64,000 nt of DNA from Lachnoclostridium sp. Marseille-P6806. GTDB taxonomy: Bacteria; Bacillota; Clostridia; Lachnospirales; Lachnospiraceae. Where the stretch lies: the NCBI RefSeq assembly GCF_900625025.1, contig NZ_LR130575.1:124001-188000 (forward strand). Direction: 5' to 3'. How positions within the stretch are numbered: position 1 is the stretch's first letter; each line of letters starts with the position of its first letter. The notes beneath the pieces were generated by a model. That model saw nothing but the letters and a program-made list of their open reading frames with translations. It was not told where the DNA came from and did not search any database. Positions 38,289-63,023 of the stretch are shown here, piece after piece. Position numbers and translations under genes: made by a program.

Positions 38289-38355
38289 GCCATGGGAACG
38301 CTTCGGGAATCATCCGTTTGGCGGATGCCGCCGGGCGCAACGCGATTTTATACTG

Positions 38356-38499: not shown

Positions 38500-39069
38500 A
38501 TGAAAACGGCGGGAAAGAGGAGAATGCTTATCATCAGCATCCTTGCGGCGATGTTGATTTTCTTTGCCGCGCTGATCATATGGAATGTGGCCCATGGGAG
38601 CGCGGGCCGGGCCGACGATGAGGCGGCCCGCCGGAAAAAGACCAAGACGCCGGGCGCGGTGACGATGGATTCCGGCGCCCTCACCGGCGCCGTCTGGCAG
38701 AGCGATGCGTATTACGGCGCCGGAACGGCGGCGCTGACGCTGGTCAATGAGCAGCGGGCTGCGGCGGGACTATCACAGCTTGCATGGAGTGATCCGCTCG
38801 CGCAGTGCGGACTGGTGCGCTCGGCGGAGCTGCCGGCGGCATTCTCTCACACACGGCCGGACGGAACAGACTGGTATACGGTGAACAGCGATCTCATGTA
38901 CGGGGAAAATCTGGCCATGGGATACAACAGTGCGGCGGAGGTCGTCGCGGCGTGGATGGCTTCGCCCACCCATCGGGACAATATCCTCACGCCCGGCTTC
39001 AAGACCTGCGGAATCGGCGTAATAGAGATCGGAGGGGTCTGGTACTGGTCGCAGGAATTCGGATATTGA
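38500..39069 (+). CDS. Secreted or membrane-anchored CAP-domain (SCP-like) protein
   Basis: Protein of 189 residues. An N-terminal hydrophobic helix (about residues 9-31) serves as signal or anchor. A basic linker follows, then a CAP domain (about 70-189) with LVNEQRAAAGLSQLAWS, FSHTRPDG, GENLAMGY, WMASPTHRDNIL and WYWSQEFG. This matches bacterial YkwD-like CAP proteins. The conserved His and Glu of the CAP cavity are visible. The function of bacterial CAP proteins is mostly unknown. It is followed within about 20 bases by a clostripain-like gene, so the two are probably co-transcribed and both act outside the membrane. Confidence 0.9.
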   Translation: MKTAGKRRMLIISILAAMLIFFAALIIWNVAHGSAGRADDEAARRKKTKTPGAVTMDSGALTGAVWQSDAYYGAGTAALTLVNEQRAAAGLSQLAWSDPLAQCGLVRSAELPAAFSHTRPDGTDWYTVNSDLMYGENLAMGYNSAAEVVAAWMASPTHRDNILTPGFKTCGIGVIEIGGVWYWSQEFGY

Positions 39070-39086
39070 ACGCCCGGGAGAAAAAT

Positions 39087-48006: not shown

Positions 48007-49875
48007 ATGTGTGGAATAGCGGGATATATCAGTAAAGAGCATATAGATCCTCAGATTCTGGTTAGAATGGCGGATCGCCTTGCCCGCCGCGGACCGGATG
48101 GGAGCGGATATTATTATGACAGCGATGCGGGCTGTGAGATAGGTATCGCGCACAGACGGCTTTCTGTTATGGATCCCTCAGAAAACGGAAGTCAGCCGAT
48201 GGTGTCGGAGAACGGCGCGGTCGTACTCAGCTTTAATGGTGAGATATATAATTTTAAGGATCTTCGCAGAGGACAGCAGGCCAGAGGGTGCTCTTTCCGA
48301 TCCGAATGCGATACAGAAGTTCTTCTGAATTCTTATCTGGAGGATGGGATCCGCAGCGCAGAGAATTTTCATGGGATGTTTGCATATGCTGTTTATGATA
48401 AAGAGCAGAAGAAGCTGTTTCTCGTCCGGGACAGAATGGGAGAAAAACCTCTCTATTACAGCTTTTCGAGCCGATATTTTTGCTTTGCGTCTGATTTGAA
48501 TGCTCTTCGGGAATTTTCTTTGTATCGTCCCGAGTTGAATGTTCAAGCACTTCAAAGCTATATGTGGAATCAGTATATCCCCGCGCCGCAGACGATCTAT
48601 CAGAATACCTACAAATTACGCTCCGGGAGTATTCTGTCCTTCGATATGAAAACGGGAAAAGTCAAGGAAGAAGTGTACTGGGATCTGCTGCGGCTTCATG
48701 AAGAGACAGAGCCATGCAGGAGAGAGAAGAAGAACGAGACATACTATATCGACGGCCTTCATGAAGTTTTGAAAAAAGCGGTAAGAGAGAGAATGGCAGC
48801 GGATGTTCCGTTAGGAGTGTACCTGAGCGGAGGCATCGACAGCTCTCTGGTTTCAGCACTGGCCAGACAGCGCGGAAAACAGATCGATACCTATTCCATC
48901 GGTTTTAGGGAAGAAGGCTATGATGAAGCGGGATATGCCAGACAAGTGGCCGGGGCCTTGGGAACCAGACATCATGAGCTGTATATTTCCATGCAGGACG
49001 CGATGGAACTGGTGCAGCAGACTGCGGAATGTTATTCGGAGCCGTTTGCGGATAACTCGCAGCTGCCGACCATGCTTTTGAGCCGGTTTGCGAGACAGGA
49101 TGTCACGGTGGCTCTTTCGGGGGATGGAGGAGATGAGCTTTTTTGCGGATATCCGAATTTCATTCAAAAGCAGCGGATGTATCTGACGAGGCATGCGTCA
49201 AAATTGCTTCGGGCAACGACAGGCAGAGAGCGGATGAAAAAACCGTATGCCTACCGGGACTGGATTCTGGCCAAAGCGTGTACGGCGTACAGTGCGGAGA
49301 ATATTATTAATCTTGATTACATAACGGCAGAGCAGATTACAGGCGGGCTTTTTCTTGAAAGAGAGGAGAAAAATCAAAGATATTTTGATGCTATTCCGGA
49401 TTCCGGGAAGCTGGCGGAGCGTTGCATGACACAATTCATGCAGTTATATCTTCAGGAAGATATCATGGCGAAAGTGGATCGTGCCAGTATGTATTATTCA
49501 TTGGAAATGCGCGCTCCTTTTTTGGATCAGGATGTTGTGGAATTCAGCCTCGGGATGCCGCTTTCCATGAAATACAGGAAGGGAGAGCTGAAGTATCCGC
49601 TGAAGAAAATTTTGTGTCAGTATATTTCAAAAGAGCTTATTGACAGACCCAAGAAAGGCTTTGGCGTCCCGATCAGTCTATGGCTGCACGGGGAATTTCA
49701 GAAGCTGCTTTCCGGATTCTTCGACAGGGATTTTCTGCGGAGTCAGAATATTTTCAATGTCGAAGAAATGGAGTGCTTCTATCGTGCTTTTATGGAAAAA
49801 CCGACGGTGATACTGGACCGTATCATGTGGTCGGTCATGCTGTTTCAGCTTTGGTACGGGAAACAACATTTGTGA
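48007..49875 (+). CDS. asnB: Glutamine-hydrolysing asparagine synthase family protein
   Basis: AsnB-type amidotransferase of 622 residues. Cys2 is the nucleophile of the N-terminal glutaminase domain (MCGIAGYIS), followed by RRGPDGSG, SFNGEIYN and GMFAYAVYD. The synthetase domain has the PP-loop YLSGGIDSS, ALSGDGGDELF and AKVDRASMYYSLEMRAPFLD. AsnB homologues inside polysaccharide clusters often amidate a uronic acid or amino-acid side group rather than making free asparagine; that is the likely use here, but ordinary asparagine synthesis is not excluded. It is followed by a structured intergenic segment. Confidence 0.9.
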   Translation: MCGIAGYISKEHIDPQILVRMADRLARRGPDGSGYYYDSDAGCEIGIAHRRLSVMDPSENGSQPMVSENGAVVLSFNGEIYNFKDLRRGQQARGCSFRSECDTEVLLNSYLEDGIRSAENFHGMFAYAVYDKEQKKLFLVRDRMGEKPLYYSFSSRYFCFASDLNALREFSLYRPELNVQALQSYMWNQYIPAPQTIYQNTYKLRSGSILSFDMKTGKVKEEVYWDLLRLHEETEPCRREKKNETYYIDGLHEVLKKAVRERMAADVPLGVYLSGGIDSSLVSALARQRGKQIDTYSIGFREEGYDEAGYARQVAGALGTRHHELYISMQDAMELVQQTAECYSEPFADNSQLPTMLLSRFARQDVTVALSGDGGDELFCGYPNFIQKQRMYLTRHASKLLRATTGRERMKKPYAYRDWILAKACTAYSAENIINLDYITAEQITGGLFLEREEKNQRYFDAIPDSGKLAERCMTQFMQLYLQEDIMAKVDRASMYYSLEMRAPFLDQDVVEFSLGMPLSMKYRKGELKYPLKKILCQYISKELIDRPKKGFGVPISLWLHGEFQKLLSGFFDRDFLRSQNIFNVEEMECFYRAFMEKPTVILDRIMWSVMLFQLWYGKQHL

Positions 49876-49969
49876 TGTAATCGACAGGGAGTATAGGTTT
49901 GAACGTTCTGCTGATGCAGAACGTTCAAACCCCGACATCGGTGCGGGGTACCGAGTCGCAGATTACATC
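49874..49969 (+). repeat. Nested hairpins between asnB and the DUF115 gene
   Basis: GGTTTGAACGTTCTG (49896-49910) and CAGAACGTTCAAACC (49917-49931) form a perfect 15-base hairpin with a 6-base loop. CCCCG (49930-49934) and CGGGG (49944-49948) form a second. GATGTAATC (49874-49882) and GATTACATC (49961-49969) enclose both as a 9-base outer stem. There is no T run, so it is not an ordinary terminator. It could be a structured RNA element, a processing site or the remains of a palindromic mobile repeat. Confidence 0.75.
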
Positions 49970-50006
49970 GGCGAATCCGAAATTCGCCTCGCGGAAAAGA
50001 GGAAAA

Positions 50007-50849
50007 ATGAATCTGAAAAGCTGTCTCAGAAAGATTCCGGGACTTATGCAGCTCAGAAATATACAGCTGGCGTTTCATGCGCCGTTATCTGAGCAGATCA
50101 GGAGTCACAGGGTAATTTGTCAGTATAGAAATCTGTATGAGGGAAAACGCTGCTTTATTATCGGGAACGGACCCAGCCTTTCTGCTGAGGATCTGGATAA
50201 GCTGCGGGATGAGATTACTTTTGGTTTTAATAAGATATATCTGATCTTCCCGAAAACGGAATGGAGGCCCACCTTTTACTGCGTACAGGATGAGCAGGTT
50301 CTTTGCGGAATCGAGGATCACATGCTGGCGGAGGTTTCCGGGAGGAGTCAGGCGACCTTTGTCCGGATGCAGTCTTTCGGGAAAATTTCCGGACGGGGCA
50401 TCCGGGCGGAAAAGCTGATCAGTGTTCCGATTTGGAATCGTATCTCCGGGGATGGCAGAATTCGTTTTTCAAAACGTGCAGATCGTTTCACCTATGACGG
50501 CTCCACGGTCTCCTATTTTGCTTTGCAGCTGGCGGCGTACATGGGGTTCCGGGAAATATATCTTCTGGGTGTTGACAACAATTTTCCATATCGGATGAAA
50601 CGAACAGGGGAGATTGTGGCCAACGATACGAGTCTTAAGGCGCATTTTTTTGATGGAACAAAGGATGATTTTGCCAGGGATTCTCTGATCAATCGATCCA
50701 ACAATTATGAGGTCGTAAACAGTGCATACCGGTCTGCGGAGGCGTTTAGCAGAGCTGACGGCAATTTCCGGATATTTAATGCCACCAGGGGAGGGATACT
50801 CGAGACTTTTGAAAGGGTGGATATGGACGAGGTGCTGAGGAACAGATGA
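50007..50849 (+). CDS. DUF115-like glycan-locus protein
   Basis: Protein of 280 residues. The key features are CFIIGNGPSL, GFNKIYLIF, RPTFYCVQD, DGSTVSYFALQLAAYMGFREIYLLGVDNNF-type spacing, matching the DUF115 (MptE-like/motility-associated) fold found in polysaccharide and flagellin-glycosylation loci. Those relatives handle nonulosonic acid or sugar transfer in some systems, but no reaction is proven. ATG 50007 with AGAGG upstream is preferred; a TTG at 49899 in the same frame lies inside the hairpin segment. It overlaps the next gene by four bases (ATGA). Confidence 0.72.
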   Translation: MNLKSCLRKIPGLMQLRNIQLAFHAPLSEQIRSHRVICQYRNLYEGKRCFIIGNGPSLSAEDLDKLRDEITFGFNKIYLIFPKTEWRPTFYCVQDEQVLCGIEDHMLAEVSGRSQATFVRMQSFGKISGRGIRAEKLISVPIWNRISGDGRIRFSKRADRFTYDGSTVSYFALQLAAYMGFREIYLLGVDNNFPYRMKRTGEIVANDTSLKAHFFDGTKDDFARDSLINRSNNYEVVNSAYRSAEAFSRADGNFRIFNATRGGILETFERVDMDEVLRNR

Positions 50850-51838
50850 ATATCGTCAGGCGAGGTGTATATAAGCTGCTCCGCATCCGGGAGTTTCTAA
50901 AAGACAGAGCGGTGTACTGGTGCCTGCTTCATGATGCGGGCAGAAAGTACAGCTTGTCTCACTTTGTGCTGTGGCTGCTCCGCAGAGGCAGAAAGCTGGT
51001 TTATTTCTACGGCGAATGCCATATCAATATTTATCGGGAAGCGCTTGGACATAATGCGGAATTCAGAAAGCGCTATCTGATGGTGGGAGCGCGGGACACG
51101 GAGTATCTTGCCGCAAAGCACGGGGATCGTCTTCTGCGGAGAGAGTCGTGGAGTAAAGCAGACGTTCTGATTTATAATTTCGGCGTACCGGAGCGGCCGG
51201 ATGTGCCGGCTCTTTCGTCTGTACTTGAATGGATTCCGGAAACCTGTTTTCAAATTTCCGTTACGAATGCAGTATTTAAGGGATATATGCCGCAGCATAC
51301 GGAGCGGGTATTTGCAAATGAAGGGTATTTCGTATGGGGTGACAAAAATCTGAACCATATTCTGTCGTCAGAGGAAGATCCGGAGGAGGAGCTCTCTCAT
51401 CTGGCCGGGGAGGATTTTTATGATCCGGATTATGTCGATCGCTATTTCTCTAAGTCTCTCAGACATTTGAAGCTGTATGAAAAGGGGTGCGATATCGGGA
51501 TTGCCGATTATATTGAAGAGCATGGAAAAGAAAGGATTCTGTATTATTCCGTCACGCATCCGGAGCAGGAGATCATGCTGGAGATATCGCGCCGTCTCGC
51601 GCTGAAGCTGGGGATTGCTCCGGCAGGGAACGGCGGGCCTGACGCGGCGGATATCATGGAGCTGCACAGCCATGGTGAGGTGGTATATCCGAGTGTCTGC
51701 AAAGCTCTCGGGCTGCCCGGGGAATGTAAAAAAAGGGCGATCAATCCGGGAAACTATAATGCTCTCTATACATTTTCAGAATATATGAGAGAATATGTTC
51801 GGGCATATAGGGAGAGTGCTTTCGTCGGAAGCGAGTGA
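50846..51838 (+). CDS. WcbI-like polysaccharide biosynthesis protein
   Basis: Protein of 330 residues. FYGECHINIYREAL resembles the GNCQ-type opening of WcbI proteins, and NFGVPERPDVP plus ISVTNAVFKGYMPQH match the rest of that fold. WcbI of Burkholderia is needed for capsule and has been proposed to bind CoA as an acetyltransferase. Four-base ATGA overlap with the preceding gene indicates coupling. A 120-base gap follows before the carrier-protein gene; it holds a TATAAT at 51935-51940 without a clear -35. Confidence 0.6.
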   Translation: MNIVRRGVYKLLRIREFLKDRAVYWCLLHDAGRKYSLSHFVLWLLRRGRKLVYFYGECHINIYREALGHNAEFRKRYLMVGARDTEYLAAKHGDRLLRRESWSKADVLIYNFGVPERPDVPALSSVLEWIPETCFQISVTNAVFKGYMPQHTERVFANEGYFVWGDKNLNHILSSEEDPEEELSHLAGEDFYDPDYVDRYFSKSLRHLKLYEKGCDIGIADYIEEHGKERILYYSVTHPEQEIMLEISRRLALKLGIAPAGNGGPDAADIMELHSHGEVVYPSVCKALGLPGECKKRAINPGNYNALYTFSEYMREYVRAYRESAFVGSE

Positions 51839-51958
51839 GACGAAAAACAGGAGAAAAGGAGTACGGAATAAGGATGCGCCGGCCGAAAGAAGCACCGAAG
51901 CAAAACATTATGGAACTGCGGACGAGATTGACGCTATAATAAACGGAGCGGATGTACA

Positions 51959-52201
51959 ATGAGCAGAGCGGAGATACTTGAAAAACTGATTCCGATTTTT
52001 CGCGATATTTTTGATGATGATGACCTTACTGTCACAGAGGAAACCAGACGGGAGGATATAGAGGATTGGGACAGCATGGGACATATTTATCTGATTGTTG
52101 AGATTGAGGATGTTCTTGGTGTCAAGCTGGAAGACAGTGCAGCTGCAAAGATTAGGAATGTGAGCGATATGATTGATTTGCTGTTGAAGCAAGGGATTTA
52201 A
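51959..52201 (+). CDS. Discrete acyl/peptidyl carrier protein
   Basis: Acidic 80-residue carrier protein with the phosphopantetheine site WDSMGH (Ser39) at the start of helix 2, the position expected for ACP/PCP domains. It must be converted to the holo form by a 4'-phosphopantetheinyl transferase encoded elsewhere. The next gene, 23 bases downstream, is an adenylating enzyme, the arrangement of DltC-DltA and of free NRPS A/PCP pairs, so the cargo is more likely an amino acid than a fatty acid. Confidence 0.9.
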   Translation: MSRAEILEKLIPIFRDIFDDDDLTVTEETRREDIEDWDSMGHIYLIVEIEDVLGVKLEDSAAAKIRNVSDMIDLLLKQGI

Positions 52202-52224
52202 CTGCCGGTCAGCGCGGAGGAAAG

Positions 52225-53775
52225 ATGGCTAGAATCGTGACGGATTATCTGGAGGAGGCGTATAGCCGGTATCCGGATAAGATTGTAATTGCAGAGGAAG
52301 GAAGAGCGGTTTCTTTCCGGGAACTCAGGGACAGCGCAATGCGCATGGCTTCTTTTTTTATTTCGGCGAAGATATTCAAGAAGCCGATTGCGGTCTACCT
52401 TGATAAAGGTGCGGATGTGGTCTCCTCGTTCATGGGCTGTGCGTACAGTGGAAATTATTATACGGCGATTGATCCGCAGATGCCACCGGCAAGAGTGCAG
52501 AGCATTATACATACGCTGCATCCGGAGTATATAATTACCAGTCGGAAATATGCAGATTGTGTCCGGGAGCTTGTTCCGGGAACTTCTCTTTTACTGTTTG
52601 AAGAGGCGCAGGAGCTGGAGGCTGATGAGCAGGAAGTAAGGCAGTGTACGGCTCGTATTATTGATACAGACGTGCTTTATGTTTTGTTTACATCCGGGTC
52701 TACCGGCGTGCCGAAAGGTGCCATTATCAGTCATCGGGCAGTTATCACTTATATCGAATGGGCCTCTGAGACATTTTCCATTCATTCCGATGAAATTCTG
52801 GCCAATCAGACACCGTTCTATTTCAGCATGTCTGTATTTGATATTTATGTGAGTCTCAGGAATGCCTGCACGATGTTTCTTGTTCCGCGACAGCTTTTTT
52901 CGGAACCGCTTGCTCTGCTTGAATATCTTGACGTCAATCGCATCAGTCTTCTGTATTGGGTTCCGTCAGCCCTTATTCCGGTCGCGAATTCCGGGGCTTT
53001 GAAGCAAAAGTCTCTCCCCTGCCTTAAAAAGGTGCTGTTTGCGGGAGAAGTAATGCCGATGCGGCAGCTCAATCTATGGAGGGAAAGCCTGCCGGAAGTT
53101 TTGTTTGCCGATTTATTCGGTCCGACAGAGGTGACAGATATCTGCACTTATTTTGTGGTGAATCGACAATTCGCGGATGAGGAGTCGCTTCCCATTGGTT
53201 TCCCCTGCAGAAATTCAGATATTCTGGTGCTTACGGATAAGGACTGTCTTGTGGAGAGCAGCCGGACGGATCTTATCGGAGAGCTGTGTGTGCGGGGGAG
53301 TACGCTTGCATACGGTTATTACAATGATCCGCTCAGGACGGCGGAGGTTTTTGTGCAGAATCCGTTGAATCCGTTTTATCCTGAGACAATATACAGAACA
53401 GGAGATCTTGTCCGTTATAATGACAGGGGAGAACTGGAATATATCGGCAGGAAAGATTTTCAGATCAAAATAAACGGTTATCGGATTGAGCTTGGAGAAA
53501 TTGAGACCGCGATATCCTCACTCTCAGAAATTGAAGAAAGCTGCTGTGTTTTTGATGATGAAAATAAGCTTATTATATGTATTTATTCTGGAAAGGCAGA
53601 GAAGCAGAGTATTCGGAAGAAGCTGCGGGGATTGCTGCCGAGATATATGATGCCCCATCGTTATATGAAGCTTGATCATATGCCGCATAACAGCAATGGA
53701 AAAATTGACAGGACGCTGCTAAAGCAAAAGGCAGTCAGTGACGGTTTGTCTCGAATGGGAGAACAAGAATTATGA
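52225..53775 (+). CDS. Amino-acid adenylating enzyme (AMP-binding, DltA-like)
   Basis: ANL-superfamily enzyme of 516 residues that should activate a carboxylic acid as AMP-ester and load it on the carrier protein encoded upstream. Core motifs are visible in order: LFTSGSTGVPKGA (A3), NQTPFYFSMSVFD (A4), FGPTEVTDICTYF (A5), GELCVRGSTLAYGY, YRTGDLVRYNDRG (A7), GRKDFQIKINGYRIELGE (A8) and the catalytic lysine near the C-terminus in NSNGKIDR (A10). The FD in A4 fits amino-acid activation. It is single-domain, without condensation or thioesterase partners in the window. The substrate cannot be read from the motifs by eye. Confidence 0.88.
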   Translation: MARIVTDYLEEAYSRYPDKIVIAEEGRAVSFRELRDSAMRMASFFISAKIFKKPIAVYLDKGADVVSSFMGCAYSGNYYTAIDPQMPPARVQSIIHTLHPEYIITSRKYADCVRELVPGTSLLLFEEAQELEADEQEVRQCTARIIDTDVLYVLFTSGSTGVPKGAIISHRAVITYIEWASETFSIHSDEILANQTPFYFSMSVFDIYVSLRNACTMFLVPRQLFSEPLALLEYLDVNRISLLYWVPSALIPVANSGALKQKSLPCLKKVLFAGEVMPMRQLNLWRESLPEVLFADLFGPTEVTDICTYFVVNRQFADEESLPIGFPCRNSDILVLTDKDCLVESSRTDLIGELCVRGSTLAYGYYNDPLRTAEVFVQNPLNPFYPETIYRTGDLVRYNDRGELEYIGRKDFQIKINGYRIELGEIETAISSLSEIEESCCVFDDENKLIICIYSGKAEKQSIRKKLRGLLPRYMMPHRYMKLDHMPHNSNGKIDRTLLKQKAVSDGLSRMGEQEL

Positions 53776-54467
53776 TCAATGGGAAAAAAGTGGTGTCGAT
53801 GATACCGATTAAACTGAACAGCGAAAGAGTAAAAGACAAAAATATCCGCAGATTTTTTGACGGAAAATATCTGGTAGAATTTATTGCCTCTGCTGCAATG
53901 GGAAGCCGATATCTTGATGAGGTATATGTATATTGCAGTGATGAGCGCATCAGGAATTATATTCCCCAAGAGGTGCGCTTCCTGCAAAGACCCGGATTTC
54001 TGGACGGCAATGACCGGAACTGCAATGACATCATCCGTGAATTCATCAAAGCTGTCGATGCGGATATTTACTGTGTCAACCATGCCACGGCGCCGTTCAC
54101 ATGCAGCGGCAGCATTGATCGATGCATAGAAGCAGTGGGGAATGATAATGAATATGATTCTGCTTTTCTTGTAAGAAAAATACAGACATTTTTCTGGAGC
54201 GACGGAAAACCGGTCAATTTTGATCTGCAGCATTTTCCGAGGACACAGGATCTGGAACCGGTGTATACGGAGACATCCGGAGCGCATGTTTTCACAAGAG
54301 AGGTATTTGAGCGTTTTGACAGAAGAGTAGGGGAGCATCCCTGCCTTGTGGAGACAGGTGAGCTTGAGAGCCTTGACATTGATACAGAGGAGGAGATGAC
54401 AGAGGCACAGGCGATCTATTGGTATATGCAGCAGCAGAAAAAACAGCAGGGGAGGAGCGCAAGGTGA
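53772..54467 (+). CDS. Cytidylyltransferase of the NeuA/KdsB superfamily
   Basis: Protein of 231 residues that probably activates an acidic sugar or related 2-keto acid with CTP. It opens with SMIPIKLNSERVKDKNIR, the NeuA-type nucleotide-binding loop, and continues with CVNHATAPFTCSGSIDRCIEAV, YDSAFLVRKIQTFFW, NFDLQHFPRTQDLEPVYTETSGAHVF and DIDTEEEMTEAQ, closely following CMP-N-acetylneuraminate synthetase-like proteins. NeuB-type synthase genes are not adjacent; instead a DRE-TIM aldolase gene overlaps by 4 bases. The stop of the adenylating gene and this start also overlap by 4 bases. Confidence 0.85.
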   Translation: MINGKKVVSMIPIKLNSERVKDKNIRRFFDGKYLVEFIASAAMGSRYLDEVYVYCSDERIRNYIPQEVRFLQRPGFLDGNDRNCNDIIREFIKAVDADIYCVNHATAPFTCSGSIDRCIEAVGNDNEYDSAFLVRKIQTFFWSDGKPVNFDLQHFPRTQDLEPVYTETSGAHVFTREVFERFDRRVGEHPCLVETGELESLDIDTEEEMTEAQAIYWYMQQQKKQQGRSAR

Positions 54468-55495
54468 GCATACAGATATCGGACTGCACAATTCGCGACG
54501 GCGGATATCTTCTTGCAAAAAATTCAGATCCGGAATTTGTCAAAGGCGTAATTGAGGGTCTTACAGCGGCAGGAATAGATTATATTGAAACCGGATTTCT
54601 GCAGGACGTTGTCATGGGGGAATCCATTGTCTATGAAAATTCAAAGGGAGCCAGGCGATATATCCCGGACGATCGCAGACGCTCGGAATTCGTGGGCTTC
54701 TGTGATAACAGCAGGTATTCGAACAGAAATCTGGATCTTTGTGACGGCAGCTCTTTTACGAATCTTCGTATTTCCTTTGCAAAGCACGAATGTGATGATG
54801 CACTCCGATTCTGCGCAGAGGCAAAAGCAAAGGGATATCATGTATTTGTGCAGCCGATGGATGCGGTCGGCTATTCTTCAAAAGAGCGGGAGCAATTAAT
54901 AAAAACGGTGAATGAGTTTCAGCCGGAGGCTTTGGCCATCGTAGATACGTTCGGTGCGATGTACATGGAAGATCTGGAGAGCATTTTCCGGCAGATGGAT
55001 AAATATTTAGATAAGAATGTGAAGATTGGTCTTCATACGCATAATAATCTTCAGCTGTCCAGTGCTCTGGCGGAAAGGCTGATTGCCATGGCGGCAGAGA
55101 CAGATAGAAGCGTTGCGGTTGACGGCTCCCTGCTCGGGATGGGCAGGGGGGCCGGAAACGCTCACACCGAGATTGTGGCGGATTATATCAATAAATATTA
55201 CGGCGGCCATTATGATATGGAGCTGCTGCTGGAGACAATCGAGAGATATGTTGCGCCGCTTAAAGCGACTGTTCAGTGGGGGTATGATATCCCCATGTTT
55301 ATCTGCGGAACAGAGGGCGCTCATGTTGATAACGTAGAATATCTCAAAAAGCACACGGATTGTAACTGGGTTGATATTCTTCGCGTGATCGACCGGCTGG
55401 ATAAGGATAAGAGAAAGCGGTACGGTAAAGGCTATTCAAAAACGGATTTTTCTTTGATAGCGGAGGAGTACAGGCGGCTCAGGAATCATGAGTGA
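54464..55495 (+). CDS. DRE-TIM metallolyase family aldolase
   Basis: Aldolase of 343 residues in the HMG-CoA lyase / 4-hydroxy-2-oxovalerate aldolase / isopropylmalate synthase superfamily. The DCTIRDGG motif near residue 7 supplies catalytic Asp and Arg, YIETGF follows, the metal-binding LHTHNN is near residue 190 and GMGRGAGNAHTE near 230. It starts at GTG 54464, overlapping the preceding stop as GTGA, with GGGGAGGAG 8 bases upstream. Superfamily chemistry is cleavage or formation of a C-C bond next to a carbonyl or carboxyl group; the actual substrate is unknown. Position between a cytidylyltransferase and a ThDP enzyme suggests a shared keto-acid pathway. Confidence 0.85.
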   Translation: MSIQISDCTIRDGGYLLAKNSDPEFVKGVIEGLTAAGIDYIETGFLQDVVMGESIVYENSKGARRYIPDDRRRSEFVGFCDNSRYSNRNLDLCDGSSFTNLRISFAKHECDDALRFCAEAKAKGYHVFVQPMDAVGYSSKEREQLIKTVNEFQPEALAIVDTFGAMYMEDLESIFRQMDKYLDKNVKIGLHTHNNLQLSSALAERLIAMAAETDRSVAVDGSLLGMGRGAGNAHTEIVADYINKYYGGHYDMELLLETIERYVAPLKATVQWGYDIPMFICGTEGAHVDNVEYLKKHTDCNWVDILRVIDRLDKDKRKRYGKGYSKTDFSLIAEEYRRLRNHE

Positions 55496-56039
55496 GGCGG
55501 GATGGATGAATTGCTCAGAATATTTGGTGGATTTTCTGATACATAAAGGCGTGACGGATGTCTTCGGGTATGCCGGAGGGTATATCGTACCGTTTATGGA
55601 TGCTCTCCATGATCGGAAGGAAGAGATTACCGCGCATGTCTGTTACAATGAACAGGGGTGTTCTTTCGCGGCGAATGGCTATGCACGTCTCAAGGGCGAG
55701 CTGGGAGTGTATTTTACGACTTCCGGTCCCGGAGCGGTCAATGCGCTGGGAGGTTTGGCGGATGCCTGGTTTGACAGCGTCCCCCTGCTTGGAATATGCG
55801 GAAATATTCCCACAAATGAACAGAAAGGCTATTCCGGAATACGCCAGAACGGTTTTCAGGAAATGGATATTGTTTCTGTGACACGAACGATAACAAAGTA
55901 TGCGGTTACGCCCAATAGTGCGGCTGAGTTTCCGGAAATTATAGAGCGGGCATACAATATAGCGACTCTGGGCAGAAAGGGAGGAGTTATCATTGATTTT
56001 CCATTTGACATCCAAAAAGCCGATATTAGTTGTCGGTAA
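55488..56039 (+). CDS. ThDP-dependent enzyme, N-terminal (Pyr) domain piece
   Basis: First part of an acetolactate-synthase-like enzyme: 183 residues covering the pyrimidine-binding domain. Catalytic Glu55 is in CYNEQGCSFAANGYAR, followed by TSGPGAVNALGGLADAW, PLLGICG and GGVIIDFPFDIQKA. The frame then stops at 56039, where relatives continue through a linker into the central domain. The rest is encoded in another frame from 55993. An ATG at 55506 is an alternative start. Alone it cannot be active, since the cofactor binds between this domain and the diphosphate domain. Either it pairs with the next product or the gene is broken. Confidence 0.8.
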   Translation: MSEAGWMNCSEYLVDFLIHKGVTDVFGYAGGYIVPFMDALHDRKEEITAHVCYNEQGCSFAANGYARLKGELGVYFTTSGPGAVNALGGLADAWFDSVPLLGICGNIPTNEQKGYSGIRQNGFQEMDIVSVTRTITKYAVTPNSAAEFPEIIERAYNIATLGRKGGVIIDFPFDIQKADISCR

Positions 56040-57102
56040 CGGCGTTCGCTCTGCGGAGGCAAAGAAGCTACTGCTGGAATTTGCCGAAAAGACGTCGATC
56101 CCTGTTCTGACGACAATGAACGGGGTCGATCTGATACAGGATGAACTCAGAATCGGATTTATAGGCGTTTACGGCAATCGCGCAGCCAATATGATCGTTA
56201 ATTCAGCGGATCTTGTCATCGCGGTCGGTGCTCGATTGGGACTCAGACAGGTTGGAAATGCGAAAGCCTTTTTTGCGCCGAACGCAAGGCTGATCCGTGC
56301 AGATATTGATCAGTATGAGCTTTCGCGATCCATTAAGGAAGATGAAGAAAAATATCTGATTGATGCCGCAAAGTTTCTTCAGGAGCTGCTTGGGGAGGAA
56401 ATTCCTCGCTACGATGCGTGGAAGAGAAGATGCTTTGCGGTGAAAGAGCTCCTGGCTGAAACAGATCAGGAGCCCGGCAATCTGTGTATTAGAAAAATAG
56501 CGGAGCTGCTTCCGCCGGATCCGGTGATTGCAGTCGATGTCGGACAGAACCTTTGCTGGTCGGCACAGTCTTTTTCGCTCAAGGGGCAGAGGGGACGGAT
56601 ACTGATCGGCGGAGGATATGGCTCCATGGGCTGCGCATTACCGTTTGCGATCGGCGCATCCATTGCGGAAAGTAAAGGGACCGTATATTGCGTTACCGGT
56701 GATGGCGGTCTTCAGATGAATATTCAGGAGCTGCAGGTGGTTGTGCGGGAGCAGCTTCCGATCAAAATTCTTGTGCTTAATAATCATGTTCTCGGAAAGA
56801 TAAGCGAGATTCAGCAGTTTTCCTATGACTGCCGTTATGCTCAGACGACGCGGGAGAGCGGATACACGGTGCCGGATTTCAGGAGAATTGCCGAAGCCTA
56901 CGGGATCAGGGCGGTTTCTGTTGACAGTTTCATGGAACTGGAAAATTATCGCGCGTGGCTGTCGGATAAAACGCCCTGCCTGATTGATATCTGTCTGGAA
57001 GAGGACAGCCGGTTGATTCCTAAAGTCAACTGGAACTCCAATCAGATTCTGCCCGAAATTGATGCGATGCTGCAAAAAAAGGCAGAGGAACTTTTGATGT
57101 GA
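55993..57102 (+). CDS. ThDP-dependent enzyme, central and PP domain piece
   Basis: Second part of the same enzyme, 369 residues: central domain from KKPILVVGNGVRSAEAKK, then the diphosphate domain with GGGYGSMGCALPFAIGA and the metal motif GDGGLQMNIQEL to LNNHVLG (about residues 235-265). Translation could begin at TTG 55993, which has AAAGGGAGGAG (55976-55986) 6 bases upstream, so it may be made as a separate subunit. The 14 bases AAAAAGCCGATATT (56014-56027) are read as QKADI in the first frame and KKPIL in this one. About 40 linker residues found in relatives are missing at that point. Confidence 0.8.
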   Translation: MIFHLTSKKPILVVGNGVRSAEAKKLLLEFAEKTSIPVLTTMNGVDLIQDELRIGFIGVYGNRAANMIVNSADLVIAVGARLGLRQVGNAKAFFAPNARLIRADIDQYELSRSIKEDEEKYLIDAAKFLQELLGEEIPRYDAWKRRCFAVKELLAETDQEPGNLCIRKIAELLPPDPVIAVDVGQNLCWSAQSFSLKGQRGRILIGGGYGSMGCALPFAIGASIAESKGTVYCVTGDGGLQMNIQELQVVVREQLPIKILVLNNHVLGKISEIQQFSYDCRYAQTTRESGYTVPDFRRIAEAYGIRAVSVDSFMELENYRAWLSDKTPCLIDICLEEDSRLIPKVNWNSNQILPEIDAMLQKKAEELLM

Positions 57103-57108
57103 GGATAT

Positions 57109-58191
57109 ATGAAAATCGTTTCTTCTACAGGACAAGGGTTTACCGGATCTACGGCAATTACCGATCTGATCAGTGAATATTCTTCGGCAAGAACATGTGA
57201 AAGCCATGGCTATGAACTGAAATTTTTTCATGATCCGCAGGGGATTTTCCATCTGTATCAATATCTTGTAAAGTGCTCGATTCCGGGAGCAAGGTATGCG
57301 GCTGTTAGAGATTATTACCATAGGTGCCAGACATGGGCAGCTTCCGGAGCGCGCATGAATTACGAGATTTTTTTTGATGGGCATTTTATGGAGTACACAA
57401 AAGCTTATTTAGAGGATCTCGGAGGTGAGAGCTACTACCTGATTCATGACACGTCGGGGATGACACAGTTGCAGCAATTCATATCCAGAGTTGTAAATAA
57501 ACTGTATTACCTGCTGGCCGGGCTGCGCTATAAGAAAGAATATGGAAAACAGCCGATCAGACCCTTGAATCTCTTTTCCCGAATGGAAAAGAATTATATG
57601 TATCTTCTGGATGAAAAATCCTTCGAGGAAAAGACGCGAGCATATATGATGCGCCTGTTTGAAAATATTTCCGACAGGGAGTTTTTTAATATTCATGAAT
57701 TGATCCCGGTACATATGATTGACGAATGCGGCAGATATTTCCGCGATCTGTATGTTATTGCGACAGAACGGGACCCGAGAGATATTTTTCTGACGGCGCG
57801 GCATCTCTGGCTGACGCCGGATTATCCCTGCTACGATGTTGAGGTATTTTGCAAATATTACCGCTGGACAAGAACTTTGATTCGGAAAGCGGAAAATATC
57901 AGAGTTCTGTATGTACAGTTTGAGGACCTCGTTTTTGCATATGATGCGACAGTGAAACAGATTGAGAATTTTCTCGGGCTCAGGGCAGAGGATCATATTT
58001 ATCCTAAAAAATTTTTCATTCCGGAGGCCTCGGGCAGAAATTGCAATCTGAAAAACAAATTTCCGGAGGAAGCGGAGAATATACGGATCATTGAACGGGA
58101 ATTATCGGAATGGCTGTATAATTTTGACGAGCAGAATACGACGGATGCTGCCGTAGGGGAAAATAATGATGCTGATTCGCGTTTTAAATAA
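57109..58191 (+). CDS. Sulfotransferase-like protein
   Basis: Protein of 360 residues with features of PAPS-dependent sulfotransferases: an N-terminal P-loop-like SSTGQGFTGSTAITDL, a later VIATERDPRDIFLTARH resembling the 3'-phosphate-binding region, and VLYVQFEDLVF, followed by an Asn/Lys-rich C-terminal segment. The rest is helical with many Tyr and Phe. If correct it would put a sulfate group on the glycan or lipid-linked intermediate. Distant kinase-like P-loop proteins are an alternative. It starts 6 bases after the ThDP gene and overlaps the ABC flippase by 26 bases. Confidence 0.65.
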   Translation: MKIVSSTGQGFTGSTAITDLISEYSSARTCESHGYELKFFHDPQGIFHLYQYLVKCSIPGARYAAVRDYYHRCQTWAASGARMNYEIFFDGHFMEYTKAYLEDLGGESYYLIHDTSGMTQLQQFISRVVNKLYYLLAGLRYKKEYGKQPIRPLNLFSRMEKNYMYLLDEKSFEEKTRAYMMRLFENISDREFFNIHELIPVHMIDECGRYFRDLYVIATERDPRDIFLTARHLWLTPDYPCYDVEVFCKYYRWTRTLIRKAENIRVLYVQFEDLVFAYDATVKQIENFLGLRAEDHIYPKKFFIPEASGRNCNLKNKFPEEAENIRIIERELSEWLYNFDEQNTTDAAVGENNDADSRFK

Positions 58192-59971
58192 ATTCAGGCG
58201 CATTCTTTCCGGAAAACAAAAGAAATATATCATATTTCTTGTATTGATTATGATCCTGGGGAGTTTTTTGGAGACGGTTTCCGTCTCGTTTATTCTTCCC
58301 TTTGTAGAGGCGATCATGAGCCCGCAGGAGATCATGTCAAATCCTGCTGTCCGTTCCTTCTGCAACCTGTTTTCTGTCAGGGATTACCGGCAGCTGCTGA
58401 TGCTTATGTCGCTGGGGATGGCGCTGGTTTATCTTTTGAAAAATGCCTTTCTTCTGTTTCAGCTTACCATTCAGAATCGTTTTGTATTCGGCAGTATGTT
58501 TGAAATGCAGAAAGAATTGCTGCGCACTTATTTGGCACGTCCTTACGAATATTATCTGGGGGTCAATTCGGGAGAAATTCTCCGGGTCATCGGAAAGGAT
58601 ACCGAATTCGCGTTCAATAATCTCTCATATGGTCTGACACTTCTTTCGGAGCTGGTTGTTTCTTTTGCTCTGATGCTGACAGTTTTTGTGATTTCTCCGA
58701 AGATTACACTTGCAATCGGCGGCCTGATCCTGCTTTTGGTGCTTCTGCTTCACAGAATTATCCGGCCCTTTTTGAAGAGTGCGGGTGTCACATATCAAAA
58801 TTCTTATGCCGGGATGTATCAGTGGATACTGCAGTCAATTCAGGGGATCAAAGAGGTTAAAATTTCTCAGAGTGAAAACTATTTTGAGAAGAAATTCGAG
58901 CAGGATGGGAGAGCTTATGTAAGAAGCCGGTATCTGCATCTGACACTGAGCGTTACCCCCCGCTATGCGATTGAAGCGATTGCCATGAGTGTTTTTTTTG
59001 TGGCGATGTATCTTATGATTGCGGATGGTGTTGTGGTGAAAGAAATCCTGCCGGTCATCTCTGTCATTGCGATGGTCGCGATACGGCTTTTGCCTGCGGC
59101 GAATAAAATTTCAAACAGCATGGCAGGAATGACGTTTGGCGAACCGGCTCTGGATAAGCTGCTGCTGAATCTTAACCGCATTGAAAGCTACAACTCGGAT
59201 AAGAAGCACGGATTCCGTGCGGGGGCAGGAGAGGAAAAAGAGCAGGGATCAGAGAGGAAAGCGAAGACGCAGAGAAGCATCTGCGGTTTTTCTGACAGGA
59301 TTGAGTTGCAGGATATCAGCTATGCTTATCCGTCGGGAGCAGAAAATGTATTGGAACATGTCAATGTCACGCTGAAGCGAGGGCTTTCTTTCGGCATTGT
59401 GGGTGCGTCGGGAGCGGGAAAGACTACGTTGATTGATATTGCCTTAGGTCTTTTGGAGCCCCAAAGCGGTCAGGTTATTGTCGATGGAACGGATATCCGG
59501 GAGGACATCAGCGGCTGGCTTGCGAGGATCGGCTATATTCCGCAGTCGATTTTTATGCTGGACGGGAGTATACGGGAGAACGTAGCGTTTGGCTGTTCTG
59601 AAGATGAGATCAGCGATGAGAAAATCTGGAGGGCGCTTCGGGAGGCCTCTCTTGAGACTTTTGTCCGTTCACTTCCCGACGGACTGGACACACAAATCGG
59701 AGAGCGGGGAACGCGCCTCTCAGGAGGGCAGAGGCAGAGAGTCGGCATTGCGAGGGCTCTTTATGCTGATCCGGAGATTCTGTTATTTGATGAAGCAACA
59801 TCTGCACTGGACAATGAAACCGAGTCAAATATCATGGAGGCTATCCATGCACTGCAGGGAAAAAAGACCATGATTATCATTGCCCACCGTCTTTCAACGA
59901 TTGAGGGCTGCGACGTGGTTTTACGGGTTGAGGGCAAAGGAATTCGGGTGGAACGGAAAGAAGAGCGATGA
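58166..59971 (+). CDS. ABC-type lipid-linked glycan flippase, PglK-like
   Basis: Fused transmembrane-ATPase half transporter of 601 residues. Six membrane helices cover about residues 15-320, followed by an ATPase with Walker A GASGAGKTT, signature LSGGQRQRV, Walker B ILLFDEATSALD and the H-loop in IIIAHRLST. Overall layout matches PglK-type flippases that move undecaprenyl-diphosphate-linked oligosaccharide across the membrane. A charged linker near residues 345-370 is longer than usual. The gene lies among glycan synthesis genes and no Wzx flippase is seen, which supports this role, although peptide export is possible. Confidence 0.82.
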   Translation: MMLIRVLNKFRRILSGKQKKYIIFLVLIMILGSFLETVSVSFILPFVEAIMSPQEIMSNPAVRSFCNLFSVRDYRQLLMLMSLGMALVYLLKNAFLLFQLTIQNRFVFGSMFEMQKELLRTYLARPYEYYLGVNSGEILRVIGKDTEFAFNNLSYGLTLLSELVVSFALMLTVFVISPKITLAIGGLILLLVLLLHRIIRPFLKSAGVTYQNSYAGMYQWILQSIQGIKEVKISQSENYFEKKFEQDGRAYVRSRYLHLTLSVTPRYAIEAIAMSVFFVAMYLMIADGVVVKEILPVISVIAMVAIRLLPAANKISNSMAGMTFGEPALDKLLLNLNRIESYNSDKKHGFRAGAGEEKEQGSERKAKTQRSICGFSDRIELQDISYAYPSGAENVLEHVNVTLKRGLSFGIVGASGAGKTTLIDIALGLLEPQSGQVIVDGTDIREDISGWLARIGYIPQSIFMLDGSIRENVAFGCSEDEISDEKIWRALREASLETFVRSLPDGLDTQIGERGTRLSGGQRQRVGIARALYADPEILLFDEATSALDNETESNIMEAIHALQGKKTMIIIAHRLSTIEGCDVVLRVEGKGIRVERKEER

Positions 59972-60873
59972 TTGAATACTTAGTGATGGATGTCGATGGG
60001 AGTTTGACAGACGGGAAAGTATATATCGGGAATGAGGGGGAGTTGTTTAAGGCGTTTTCCGTCAAAGACGGATATGCATTCCGCTATCTCTTAGAGCCGA
60101 GCGGGATAGAGCCGGTTGTCATTACTGCCCGGGAAAGCCGTATAGTAGAGAAGCGCTGTGCAGAGTTGGGAATACGACAGGTACTGCAGGGGAGAACTGA
60201 TAAGATGGAGGCTCTCAGGAGCGTTTTGCCCTCCGCAGAGGCGTTGCAGAGATGCGCATACTTCGGAGACGACAGTTTGGATCTCGTATGCATGAAAGTG
60301 CTCAGAGAGGCCGGGGGAGTATCAGGCTGTCCCGCGGATGCGATTCCGGAGGTGAGGGCTGCGGCCGACTATGTATGCTTTTCCAGGGCAGGAGACGGAG
60401 CGCTTCGTGAATTTGCCGAGTGGCTGGTTTCTCTTCGGGAAAAAACGAATGAAAGAAAGATATCTTCGCGAGTTGAACAGGCGATTTCTTTTCTGGGGAA
60501 TCTGGATCGGACGAAATTGCAGCCGGGTCGCTTCACAGTGAATGACGACTTTTATTATACAGTACAGGAGTATGATACACGGGAGAGTGCGGAGTGCCGG
60601 CTGGAGTCGCATCGGAAATATATTGATATTCAGTGGATTATCCGGGGAACTGAAGAAATTGATATTGCCCCTACATCGACACTTCAGAGGAAAACGCCAT
60701 ATGATCCGGAGAAAGATATCGAATTTTGGAACGAACCGGTAAGGATGGCACAAATTGTTCTCCGCGAGGAGGGATATGCTGTTTTTTATCCGGGAGATGC
60801 GCACAGAGGCTGCGTGAAGGTCGGAAAATCCTGCAGAATCCTGAAGCTGGTAGGCAAGGTGAGGTGCTGTTAA
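59968..60873 (+). CDS. Fusion of KdsC-like HAD phosphatase and YhcH domain
   Basis: Protein of 301 residues with two domains. Residues 1-155 are a HAD phosphatase of the KDO-8-phosphate phosphatase type: VMDVDGSLTDG with Asp8 and Asp10, FSVKDGYAF, VITARES, and YFGDDSLDL. Residues 163-300 are a YhcH/YjgK/YiaL domain: SRVEQAISFLGN, SHRKYIDIQWIIRG, FYPGDAHRG. KdsC acts in KDO and, with relatives, sialic-acid pathways, and YhcH is linked to sialic-acid anomer or catabolic steps, so the fusion points to an acidic 2-keto sugar. It overlaps the flippase gene by 4 bases. Confidence 0.85.
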   Translation: MIEYLVMDVDGSLTDGKVYIGNEGELFKAFSVKDGYAFRYLLEPSGIEPVVITARESRIVEKRCAELGIRQVLQGRTDKMEALRSVLPSAEALQRCAYFGDDSLDLVCMKVLREAGGVSGCPADAIPEVRAAADYVCFSRAGDGALREFAEWLVSLREKTNERKISSRVEQAISFLGNLDRTKLQPGRFTVNDDFYYTVQEYDTRESAECRLESHRKYIDIQWIIRGTEEIDIAPTSTLQRKTPYDPEKDIEFWNEPVRMAQIVLREEGYAVFYPGDAHRGCVKVGKSCRILKLVGKVRCC

Positions 60874-60900
60874 ATACCGGAAGAGGAGTGGTTTTATCGC

Positions 60901-61917
60901 ATGGAAAAATGTTTGTCAATCTGTATTCCGGCTTATAACAGACCGGCAGAGCTTTTGCGTCTTCTGCGTTCGATTGACTCTGTAATGTATCGGGATCGGA
61001 TTGAAGTGGTCATACGGGAGGATCAGTCTCCGAAAAGAGAGGAGATTCGGGCATCTGTGAAGAGCTTTCAGACGGAGAGCAGTCTGGAAGTTCGTTATAC
61101 GGAAAACCCTGAAAATTATGGCTATGACAAGAATCTCCGTACACTTGCAGGAAGTGCACAGGGGCGCTACGTCCTTATCATGGGAGATGACGATGTTTTC
61201 TGTCCGGGAGCATTGGATCCATACCTTTCATTCATTGAAGAGCACTCGGATATAGGATATATTCTGCGGAGATACCGGGCGCAGTATGCGGATGGCACGG
61301 TGGAGGATTACCGCTATGCAAAGCAGAATGTGTTTTTTGAGCCCGGTGAGGACAGCTATGTTGAGTTGTTTCGCAGAAGCCTGTTCATTTCGGGATTTAC
61401 TTTCAGAAAAGCGGATTTCAATGATTTCGGGCAAAAAGCATTTGATGGTACTCTGCTGTTTCAGCTCTATATAGAGGCGACGGTCTGTCTGAACAGGAGA
61501 GCGGCTTATTGTGATATCCCGCTTACCATGTCGATAGAGGGTGGTATTCCGTATTTCGGGAGCAGTAAAAACGAACAGGCACTTTACACCTCCGGTTCGA
61601 ATACGGTCGGCAACAGTATCAATTTCATGAAACAGGTGATATATACCTCGGAGCAAATTGATCGTATTTTTCAGATAAAATGCAGCCGGCGTATTGTGGA
61701 GAGCTACTCCCGCTATTCTTATGGATTTTTGCTGGAACACAGGCAGGAAGGAATACGGGTTTTTACTCGCTATGCACGGGAGCTACGCGAGCTCGGCTTT
61801 GGCTGTACACTGTATTTTTATCTTTATTACCTGATGCTGCTGTTTCTGGGCAGAAAAGGAACCAGAAAACTGATTGTTTTTGTAAAAAAGCTTTGGGGGA
61901 GGACTCCCCGCTTATAG
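60901..61917 (+). CDS. Glycosyltransferase family 2
   Basis: GT-A transferase of 338 residues. It opens LSICIPAYNRPAELLRLL, has EDQSPKREEI, NYGYDKNLRTL and the metal-binding IMGDDDVF. The C-terminal region has a hydrophobic segment (LYFYLYYLMLLFL) that probably associates with the membrane. The start at 60901 follows AGAGGAGTGG. Acceptor and donor are unknown. Confidence 0.88.
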   Translation: MEKCLSICIPAYNRPAELLRLLRSIDSVMYRDRIEVVIREDQSPKREEIRASVKSFQTESSLEVRYTENPENYGYDKNLRTLAGSAQGRYVLIMGDDDVFCPGALDPYLSFIEEHSDIGYILRRYRAQYADGTVEDYRYAKQNVFFEPGEDSYVELFRRSLFISGFTFRKADFNDFGQKAFDGTLLFQLYIEATVCLNRRAAYCDIPLTMSIEGGIPYFGSSKNEQALYTSGSNTVGNSINFMKQVIYTSEQIDRIFQIKCSRRIVESYSRYSYGFLLEHRQEGIRVFTRYARELRELGFGCTLYFYLYYLMLLFLGRKGTRKLIVFVKKLWGRTPRL

Positions 61918-61949
61918 CGTGATGAATCTGCCGCAGGCAGGGAGGAAAT

Positions 61950-63023
61950 ATGCGGAAGCTTGCAGAAACCGACCCGATTCTGATTGTCGGAGCCGGTGAT
62001 TATCCGATTTATGAGACGGCACTCTATGAGGGGCTGATTGCGCTGGGATATGCAAAGACCTCACTCTTCACATGGAATTCATATTATTCCGGAGACGGTA
62101 TATTACGCGCACTTATTAAAAGGGCGGAGATCAAGGCGTCATATGGATTCATTGCAGCAAGAATAAATAAAGAGCTTCTGGAATACTGTGTCCGGATTCA
62201 TCCTGCTCTGGTTTTTCTTTATACCTGCCGTCTGATTTATCCGGAGACGGCAAAGCGGATACATGACATGGGGATATGTCTTGTGAGCTATTGTAACGAT
62301 AATCCGTTCTCGGATTATTTTCCCTCGTATTTTTGGAGAAATTATATCAGGGCACTACCGTATTGTGACATCAATTACGGATATCGAAAGGAAAACTTGG
62401 AGGATATTCGGAAGAAAACAGGGAGAGCGGGAAAGCTGCTGCGATCCTATTATATTGCGGGCAAAAATTACCCGTGCATGGAAAAGGAGCTGCTTCCAGA
62501 TACGCCAGAGGTCATATTCCTCGGGCATTATGAGGATGATTACAGGAAAGAATATCTGGAGGCGCTGCGGGAGGCCGGTATTACGGTAGGACTTCCGAAG
62601 CAGGAGTTCTCTTCATGGGCAGAGGGCAAAAAGGGGATTATCCTGCTGGAGGATACGCGAAGACTGTACAATAATTATCTGTGCAGCTGTAAGGTTCCGA
62701 TTACCTTTCTTTCTACACTGAACAGGGATACGTATACCAGGCGCTGTTTTGAGATCCCCGCGGCAGGAGCGCTTCTTTTCAGCTTATATACAGAAGATCT
62801 GGCATCTCTTTTCGACGAAGACAAGGAGGCGGTTTTTTTTCGAGGGAAACAGGATTTTATTCAAAAGCTGCAATATTACCTGGTGCATGACGAGGAACGG
62901 AAACGCATCGCAGAGGTGGGCCGGCAGAGAATTCTGAAAGATGGCCATGAGGTAAGAGACCGGGCAAAGCAGATCCTGAGAGACGTCGGTGAGCTGCAGC
63001 AGAAAGGGCGCGGAAAAGAGTGA
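61950..63023 (+). CDS. CgeB-like glycosyltransferase
   Basis: Protein of 357 residues resembling CgeB/spore-maturation-type GT-B transferases. The N-terminus has ILIVGAGDYPIYETALYEGL, then VFLYTCRLIYPETAKRIHDMG and VSYCNDNPF. The C-terminal part has VIFLGHYEDD and the characteristic YTRRCFEIPAAGALLFS before DEERKRIAEVGRQRIL. The conserved Glu of the retaining GT-B donor site is in CFEIPA. It starts after AGGGAGG and overlaps the final gene by 4 bases (GTGA). Confidence 0.8.
   Translation: MRKLAETDPILIVGAGDYPIYETALYEGLIALGYAKTSLFTWNSYYSGDGILRALIKRAEIKASYGFIAARINKELLEYCVRIHPALVFLYTCRLIYPETAKRIHDMGICLVSYCNDNPFSDYFPSYFWRNYIRALPYCDINYGYRKENLEDIRKKTGRAGKLLRSYYIAGKNYPCMEKELLPDTPEVIFLGHYEDDYRKEYLEALREAGITVGLPKQEFSSWAEGKKGIILLEDTRRLYNNYLCSCKVPITFLSTLNRDTYTRRCFEIPAAGALLFSLYTEDLASLFDEDKEAVFFRGKQDFIQKLQYYLVHDEERKRIAEVGRQRILKDGHEVRDRAKQILRDVGELQQKGRGKE

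Follow-up and report, generated by a model that had tools for sequence, protein, structure and literature searches.

A stretch of 64,000 nucleotides from the genome of Lachnoclostridium sp. Marseille-P6806 (contig C2:124001-188000, referred to below as the window; genome 3.13 Mb, 96.7% complete) contains nine open reading frames (ORFs) packed into positions 51959-60873. The thiamine diphosphate (ThDP) enzyme of this run had been taken for a single gene in the original prediction. Its domains are indeed present but are divided between two ORFs, TDPn (55488-56039) and TDPc (55993-57102), which lie in different frames and overlap by 47 nt. The same arrangement was found in all eight loci with a short-form aldolase, and in each of these the genes CMPT, ALD, TDPn and TDPc follow one another in the same order. 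Our reading, for which belief and doubt are about evenly balanced, is that this conserved core, together with a KdsC-like phosphatase, makes a C-branched acidic sugar activated with cytidine monophosphate (CMP), without NeuB or KdsA and by way of a two-chain ThDP enzyme. The features on which this reading rests are the following.

53772..54467, + strand: CMPT, NeuA/PseF-like CMP-sugar-acid cytidylyltransferase (PF02348, CTP_transf_3, 63.5 bits, cut-off 22.6)
54464..55495, + strand: ALD, short-form pyruvate aldolase of the DRE-TIM type (HMGL-like; PF00682, 75.7 bits), with a GTG start overlapping the CMPT stop
55488..56039, + strand: TDPn, putative PYR-domain subunit of the ThDP enzyme, with the catalytic Glu (PF02776, 121 bits)
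55973..55995, + strand: Shine-Dalgarno-like purine run and TDPc TTG start, within TDPn; AGRAARGGRGGN ends 7 nt ahead of the TTG in 8/8 split loci
55993..57102, + strand: TDPc, putative middle and PP-domain subunit (PF00205 and PF02775), with a TTG start within TDPn, in the +1 frame
59968..60873, + strand: KdsC-like HAD phosphatase (TIGR01670, 123.5 bits, cut-off 106.95) fused to a YhcH domain resembling sugar-acid anomerases (PF04074, 108.9 bits)

A thiamine diphosphate enzyme in two overlapping reading frames

The eight split loci comprise the window, four contigs of metagenome-assembled genomes (MAGs) obtained from the aldolase scan (L031-L034) and three loci obtained from genome searches (L038 in genome G454, L039 in G522 and L058 in G1093). 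Seven belong to Bacillota and one to Bacteroidota, the latter being a Paludibacteraceae MAG among L031-L034, while the other three of these four are Lachnospiraceae or Eubacterium MAGs. The split was identical throughout with respect to the 47-nt overlap, the TTG start of TDPc (counted as -46 from the TDPn stop by our scripts, an equivalent position), the TDPn stop and the purine-rich ribosome site, and the split ThDP proteins formed a monophyletic clade with a support of 100/100 in a tree of 17 rows. The catalytic Glu (EQG motif) lies within TDPn in all eight loci and the ThDP-binding GDG...NN motif within TDPc in all seven intact copies (L058 excluded), so that neither ORF holds a whole active site. 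Judged by their sequences, TDPn and TDPc seem to constitute one two-chain YerE-like enzyme. A ThDP gene broken by a frameshift, which was the first reading of this junction, was ruled out by the identical split in the eight loci, and slippage of the ribosome on a run of A by L033, in which no such run is present at this place.

Several features of codon usage bear on how the overlap has been maintained. Third codon positions of TDPn were 34-53% alike among the split loci (median 44%, 28 pairs). Conserved degenerate codons were represented by 1.62 different codons on average at the eight positions within the overlap vs 2.95 at the 92 positions outside, a restriction with a permutation p of 0.00035 that is rough, related sequences having been treated as independent, and fully identical codons made up 3/8 vs 6/92 of these positions (Fisher 0.023, likewise rough with kinship ignored). 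At the ribosome site, Arg was encoded by AGR and the first Gly by GGR in 8/8 split loci (pooled use 98/178 and 184/355, respectively), and the Gly codon creating the TDPn stop was GGT in every case, against a background of 78/355 (22%). The split proteins read GRKGGV at this site, while the second Gly is replaced by Pro (six) or Ala (one) in the seven intact relatives. The codon for this Gly adds to the G-rich ribosome site, yet a G run is present in one of the intact relatives, L073, as well. Intact relatives carry a linker of 39-44 residues at the split site (five of the seven were measured), which is absent from the split genes. The arrangement looks like the split of an ancestral ThDP gene that has been held by selection.

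The suggestion in the original prediction that the ThDP enzyme resembles YerE fits its kinship. The best solved relatives of TDPc were 5ahk (4e-49), presumably PpYerE, and 8rph (1e-46). The latter is named as JanthE, a YerE-like enzyme, in an excerpt of PMC12188165, and according to an excerpt of PMC12247030 the keto sugars to which YerE-like enzymes transfer acyl groups are those of lipopolysaccharide. TDPc has in common with YerE, ErwE and JanthE this nearest solved kinship, the polysaccharide context, the Glu and GDG...NN motifs (the former in TDPn) and the absence of the Trp typical of acetohydroxyacid synthase (AHAS). Unlike these lyases, for which a single chain of ~550-600 residues is characteristic, the enzyme is encoded here by two ORFs with an out-of-frame overlap and without the linker, and it is found with a CMP-sugar enzyme rather than in their CDP-sugar setting.

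Two other ThDP enzymes were compared. AHAS (IlvB/IlvG) has the same domain order, and the ten plasmid matches listed for TDPc showed 34-36% identity. The Trp of the RQWQ motif lies at the acceptor site in AHAS. At this position SEIQ was found in six and VEIQ in one of the seven intact TDPc proteins vs RQWQ in 3/3 AHAS references, and this replacement of Trp by Ile ruled out an AHAS for amino acid synthesis. The split also sets the enzyme apart from IlvB/IlvG, and no IlvN-type small subunit was present among the window proteins scanned. Sulfopyruvate decarboxylase ComDE, presumably a two-subunit ThDP enzyme with PYR and PP domains on separate chains as in TDPn and TDPc, belongs to another family; here, in contrast, the middle domain shares a chain with the PP domain, and the two genes have an out-of-frame overlap.

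The aldolase and the absent NeuB/KdsA synthase

ALD carries the metal and substrate motifs of DRE-TIM enzymes, and its residues D7, R11-D12, H191/H193, N195 and G229-A-G-N232 were invariant in the five aligned loci; we take the roles of these residues, including the HxH and GAGN motifs, to be those usual in the family. The nearest solved relative was 3dxi ('putative aldolase'), followed by 4-hydroxy-2-oxovalerate aldolases. The HMGL-like (DRE-TIM) family, the metal motifs and GAGN are common to ALD, DmpG/MhpE and 3dxi. ALD differs from DmpG/MhpE in its score under the curated cut-off for 4-hydroxy-2-oxovalerate aldolase (TIGR03217, 84 bits, cut-off 286), in a Tyr discussed below and in its polysaccharide context.

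Short aldolases formed one clade (eight rows, 100/100) and were rare in our genome draws, which overlap one another. At E<=1e-90 matches were obtained in 3/392 genomes of the order, own genome included, while in the draw of 397 genomes of the family only the own genome scored better than 1.6e-84. The class draw (391 genomes) gave four matches at E<=1e-70, two of them short-form (own genome and G454), and the phylum draw (398 genomes) gave the short form in the own genome only, plus two fused forms. Within narrower groups, the short form was present in 2/79 genomes of the genus of G454 and 1/61 of the own genus, and it accounted for one of the two aldolase matches in the family of G522 (48 genomes).

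A further 20 aldolase rows, mostly the best matches of the family draw rather than a random sample and in some cases near stretch ends, carry an extra domain of ~200 residues (e.g. L043:8852-9490). This domain had no Pfam match in the three proteins scanned, a PDB search of one gave a single match (E 0.81), and it was weakly similar to the MptE-like family described below (hhalign probability 83). By tblastn, a CMPT-like gene was located within 4 kb of the fused aldolase in 15 of the 20 rows, a KdsC-like HAD was present in 12 of these 15, and 13 of the 15 had no ThDP enzyme within 4 kb. The two exceptions are L049 and L058, where the ThDP enzyme comes from the neighbouring split cassette. The phosphatase thus goes with CMPT, as it occurs in 12/15 rows with and 0/5 rows without this gene, and the product of the aldolase on its own seems to suffice for CMPT.

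The original prediction had proposed that the aldolase stands in for a NeuB/KdsA-type synthase, and the relatives of ALD support this. KdsB above its curated cut-off was found beside aldolase relatives in L042, L058 and L072, L058 thereby having, besides its split cassette, a further pairing of KdsB with a fused aldolase. KdsA exceeded its cut-off in none of the ten genomes searched, NeuB not having been searched there, and no KdsA match at all was obtained in five of them, including those harboring these loci (G108, G1093 and G158, respectively). The remaining five genomes had only KdsA matches under the cut-off, which are probably DAHP synthases. KdsB next to an aldolase in genomes without a KdsA match argues for the aldolase as a substitute for the 2-keto-acid synthase. 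As a separate observation, L060:11948-13702, which adjoins a set of KdsB-like, aldolase and phosphatase genes, showed a weak likeness to BNR repeats (31.3 bits, cut-off 31.4).

The absence of NeuB and KdsA that had been noted for the locus holds for the window, although a NeuB homologue does occur in the genome. The sole NeuB-family match of the genome was a PseI above the cut-off on contig C4, and the two DAHP_synth_1 matches were AroFGH enzymes, all three outside the window. The same stretch of C4 encodes a PseF above the cut-off, which is not the CMPT of the window, and the ORF after PseI appears PseG-like by eye, with no Pfam match for the part scanned. Given PseI and PseF together, this stretch seems to encode a pseudaminic acid pathway of its own, and a KdsA or NeuB hidden elsewhere in the genome was rejected as the source for the window pathway on the grounds of this location.

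The proposed pathway and its alternatives

We infer the reactions, their order, the product and the separate translation of TDPc, rather than frameshifting, as follows. ALD, as a metal-dependent enzyme, would condense pyruvate with a sugar aldehyde, most likely a phosphorylated one, to give a 3-deoxy-2-keto sugar acid, from which the KdsC-like phosphatase would remove the phosphate. The YhcH domain would set the anomer, CMPT would form the CMP-sugar and a glycosyltransferase would put it into a polymer. TDPn and TDPc would add a decarboxylated 2-keto acid unit, in the simplest case acetyl from pyruvate, to a carbonyl of the intermediate, resulting in a C-branched product, with TDPc being translated separately from the TTG within TDPn, in the +1 frame and from its own Shine-Dalgarno site. 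The window shares a CMP-sugar cytidylyltransferase, a KdsC-like phosphatase and a YhcH domain with the KdsA-KdsC-KdsB and NeuB/PseI-NeuA/PseF pathways for Kdo and nonulosonic acids. It differs from them in lacking the phosphoenolpyruvate-dependent NeuB/KdsA synthase, in place of which a ThDP enzyme is found along with a DRE-TIM aldolase of the pyruvate type. The three shared components match general families but score under the cut-offs of the substrate-specific models. CMPT scored 57 bits against the PseF model (cut-off 205.7), the phosphatase, a member of the KdsC-type family TIGR01670, scored 134.7 against the KdsC equivalog NF007019 (cut-off 208), and the YhcH domain, a member of the general family, scored 87.4 against the N-acetylneuraminate anomerase equivalog NF040884 (cut-off 160).

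The KdsC-like HAD was present in six of the eight split loci (the window and 5/7 others), located 2.9 kb downstream of TDPc as the YhcH fusion in the window and between ALD and TDPn in L038. A further protein family occurs in three split loci (L032, L039 and L058). Its L039 member exceeded the Pfam cut-off for alpha-2,8-polysialyltransferase (35.4 over 23.3), which fits a CMP-sugar-acid donor; the L032 and L058 members had no Pfam match. A second CMPT-like gene was observed at L031:19645-20310 (45% identical to that of the window) and L033:3509-4168 (34%).

A number of observations weigh against the proposed pathway. In L058 (L058:7090-7983) only the first 168 residues of TDPc are retained; an unrelated acidic tail follows, and the PP domain is lost. 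In a separate draw of 220 genomes of the family, the search with TDPn returned the own genome and three other matches at E<=1e-45, each of them an intact frame of 572-592 residues, so that no relative split likewise was found there. No HAD was detected in the stretches fetched for L031 and L058, and the KdsB of L060 fell under its equivalog cut-off. Tyr15 of ALD occupies the position of a His in 4-hydroxy-2-oxovalerate aldolase (DmpG) that we assume to be catalytic, and the chemistry of ALD may consequently differ. Finally, the remaining five of the 20 fused-aldolase rows (L047, L048, one of L049, L071 and L075) have a ThDP enzyme but neither CMPT nor HAD, which suits a different role.

Such a role could resemble that of ErwE, with the 4-hydroxy-2-oxo acid made by ALD serving as the donor in a decarboxylating coupling to a keto sugar by the ThDP enzyme, and with CMPT acting on another compound. 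This is an unlikely, though not far-fetched, explanation. An excerpt of PMC12247030 reports that ErwE and MMAR_2332 prefer 4-hydroxy-2-oxo acid donors, and in L047 and L048 a fused aldolase occurs together with an unsplit ThDP enzyme and an RfbF above the cut-off, accompanied in L048 by an RfbH above the cut-off. Against it stand the 13/15 fused-aldolase rows that have CMPT without a ThDP enzyme and the HAD in 12/15, the scan of 23 window proteins, which gave no RfbF-type enzyme, and the decarboxylation itself, by which a carboxylate presumably required by a NeuA-type CMPT would be lost.

The original prediction treated the whole run as one pathway and placed the carrier protein, adenylation enzyme, cytidylyltransferase, aldolase, ThDP enzyme, sulfotransferase and HAD-YhcH fusion correctly, as domain searches confirmed. 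All genes it listed are present, but the ABC transporter at 58166-59971 went unmentioned. The genes outside the conserved unit, together with an upstream neighbor of the run, are listed below.

51959..52201, + strand: acyl/peptidyl carrier protein (PF00550, 19.4 bits, slightly under the cut-off of 20.8), accessory
52225..53775, + strand: amino-acid-type adenylation enzyme, similar to DltA and nonribosomal peptide synthetases (TIGR01733, 324 bits, cut-off 317), accessory
57109..58191, + strand: sulfotransferase-like protein (Sulfotransfer_3, PF13469, 30.8 bits, cut-off 27), accessory
58166..59971, + strand: PglK/MsbA-like ABC exporter (PF00005 and PF00664), between the sulfotransferase and the HAD-YhcH fusion, accessory
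49899..50849, + strand: MptE-like protein, possible CMP-sugar transferase (PF01973, 40.2 bits, cut-off 34.6)

In a nine-gene pathway, the carrier protein and adenylation enzyme would attach an amino acid to the acidic sugar, with sulfate added by the sulfotransferase. The operon is tight, with 6/8 junctions overlapping as the original prediction had indicated, and accessory genes recur in the stretches examined of other split loci: the adenylation enzyme in L031 (47% identical to that of the window and followed by a 91-aa ORF) and L039 (30%), the sulfotransferase in L038 (50% identical) and the ABC transporter in two of the seven. We nevertheless regard this pathway as improbable. Within these stretches, the adenylation enzyme is missing from 5/7 and the sulfotransferase from 6/7 of the other split loci, giving totals of 3/8 and 2/8 with the window included (3/8 for the transporter), and the carrier gene is likewise missing from most of them. 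Absences in L033 mean little, its contig comprising only 6.4 kb. A role of Dlt-type alanylation within the core was ruled out by this variable occurrence of the adenylation enzyme, which moreover scored 291.9 bits against the DltA equivalog TIGR01734 (cut-off 559.85). Elsewhere, L069:6163-8147 contains a second adenylation gene, 35% identical to that of the window and followed by an 81-residue carrier protein (PF00550); these may be the genome's own dlt operon.

Programmed +1 frameshifting within the 47-nt overlap would yield the ThDP enzyme as one polypeptide. The sequence GAT TTT CC is conserved in 8/8 loci, a +1 slip would re-pair as UUC, and the parts on both sides are conserved. We consider this quite improbable in comparison with the separate translation of TDPc, as the ribosome site and TTG keep a fixed spacing and GGT keeps the TDPn stop in all eight loci. 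In addition, the GATTTT codons have to accommodate the start codon of TDPc and the residues that follow it.

A patchwork of unrelated genes with a ThDP pseudogene is scarcely credible. The GC content, 0.59-0.64 over the window's first 24 kb and 0.46-0.49 at 48-64 kb, suggests a horizontal origin, but the random assembly that the original prediction had named as its possible undoing is contradicted for the four-gene core, since the same genes, order and split recur in eight loci of two phyla with third codon positions only 34-53% alike. The search of gene neighborhoods that had been recommended for the cytidylyltransferase, aldolase and ThDP enzyme thus revealed a conserved trio.

Surroundings of the locus and implications

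The run is part of a polysaccharide locus that extends from ~42.8 kb onward and includes a polyprenyl glycosylphosphotransferase, FnlA-like and WbcJ-like enzymes and a glycosyltransferase. The MptE-like protein may be the transferase for the CMP-sugar, based on a likeness to CMP-sugar transferases that we assume. Homologues were present in 10/26 loci examined, among the split loci only in L031, and a sequence search gave no PDB relative. The first 36 codons of its gene (49899-50006) have a 75% identical copy at L068:12468-12575, ~26 kb downstream and beyond the window, perhaps as a trace of recombination. Promoter and terminator scans of 49800-62000 gave counts close to those of shuffled sequence (20 vs 17.4 and 16 vs 11.0, respectively). 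No relatives were found on the viral contigs searched, and plasmid and phage records gave only matches of <60% identity. Outside the locus, an AAA ATPase with DUF234 (36827-38293, - strand) lies inside a GC dip and matches the PADLOC candidate defence family PDC-S27 (E 2e-42), and at 38500-41147 the ORF of a CAP-domain protein overlaps that of a clostripain-family (C11) peptidase.

All parts of the cassette come from known families, and we did not find the two-ORF YerE-like enzyme or the cassette described: no title or abstract reported the gene set or the split enzyme, most subscription journals lying outside the search. We tentatively suggest, at a confidence somewhat short of even, that a new class of CMP-activated C-branched sugar acids is made by a pyruvate aldolase in place of NeuB/KdsA, that the branch is added by the first two-chain YerE-like enzyme, with its subunits encoded in a conserved out-of-frame overlap, and that the four-gene cassette has spread between Bacillota and Bacteroidota. 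If true, gut bacteria could make acidic surface sugars without the usual marker enzymes, by a route that current annotation would therefore miss, and a tractable four-gene cassette would be predicted for a glycan not known before. The separate PYR and PP chains of a two-chain ThDP carboligase could be mixed for C-C bond chemistry, and the fixed out-of-frame overlap clearly exemplifies an ancestral gene that was split and apparently kept so by selection.

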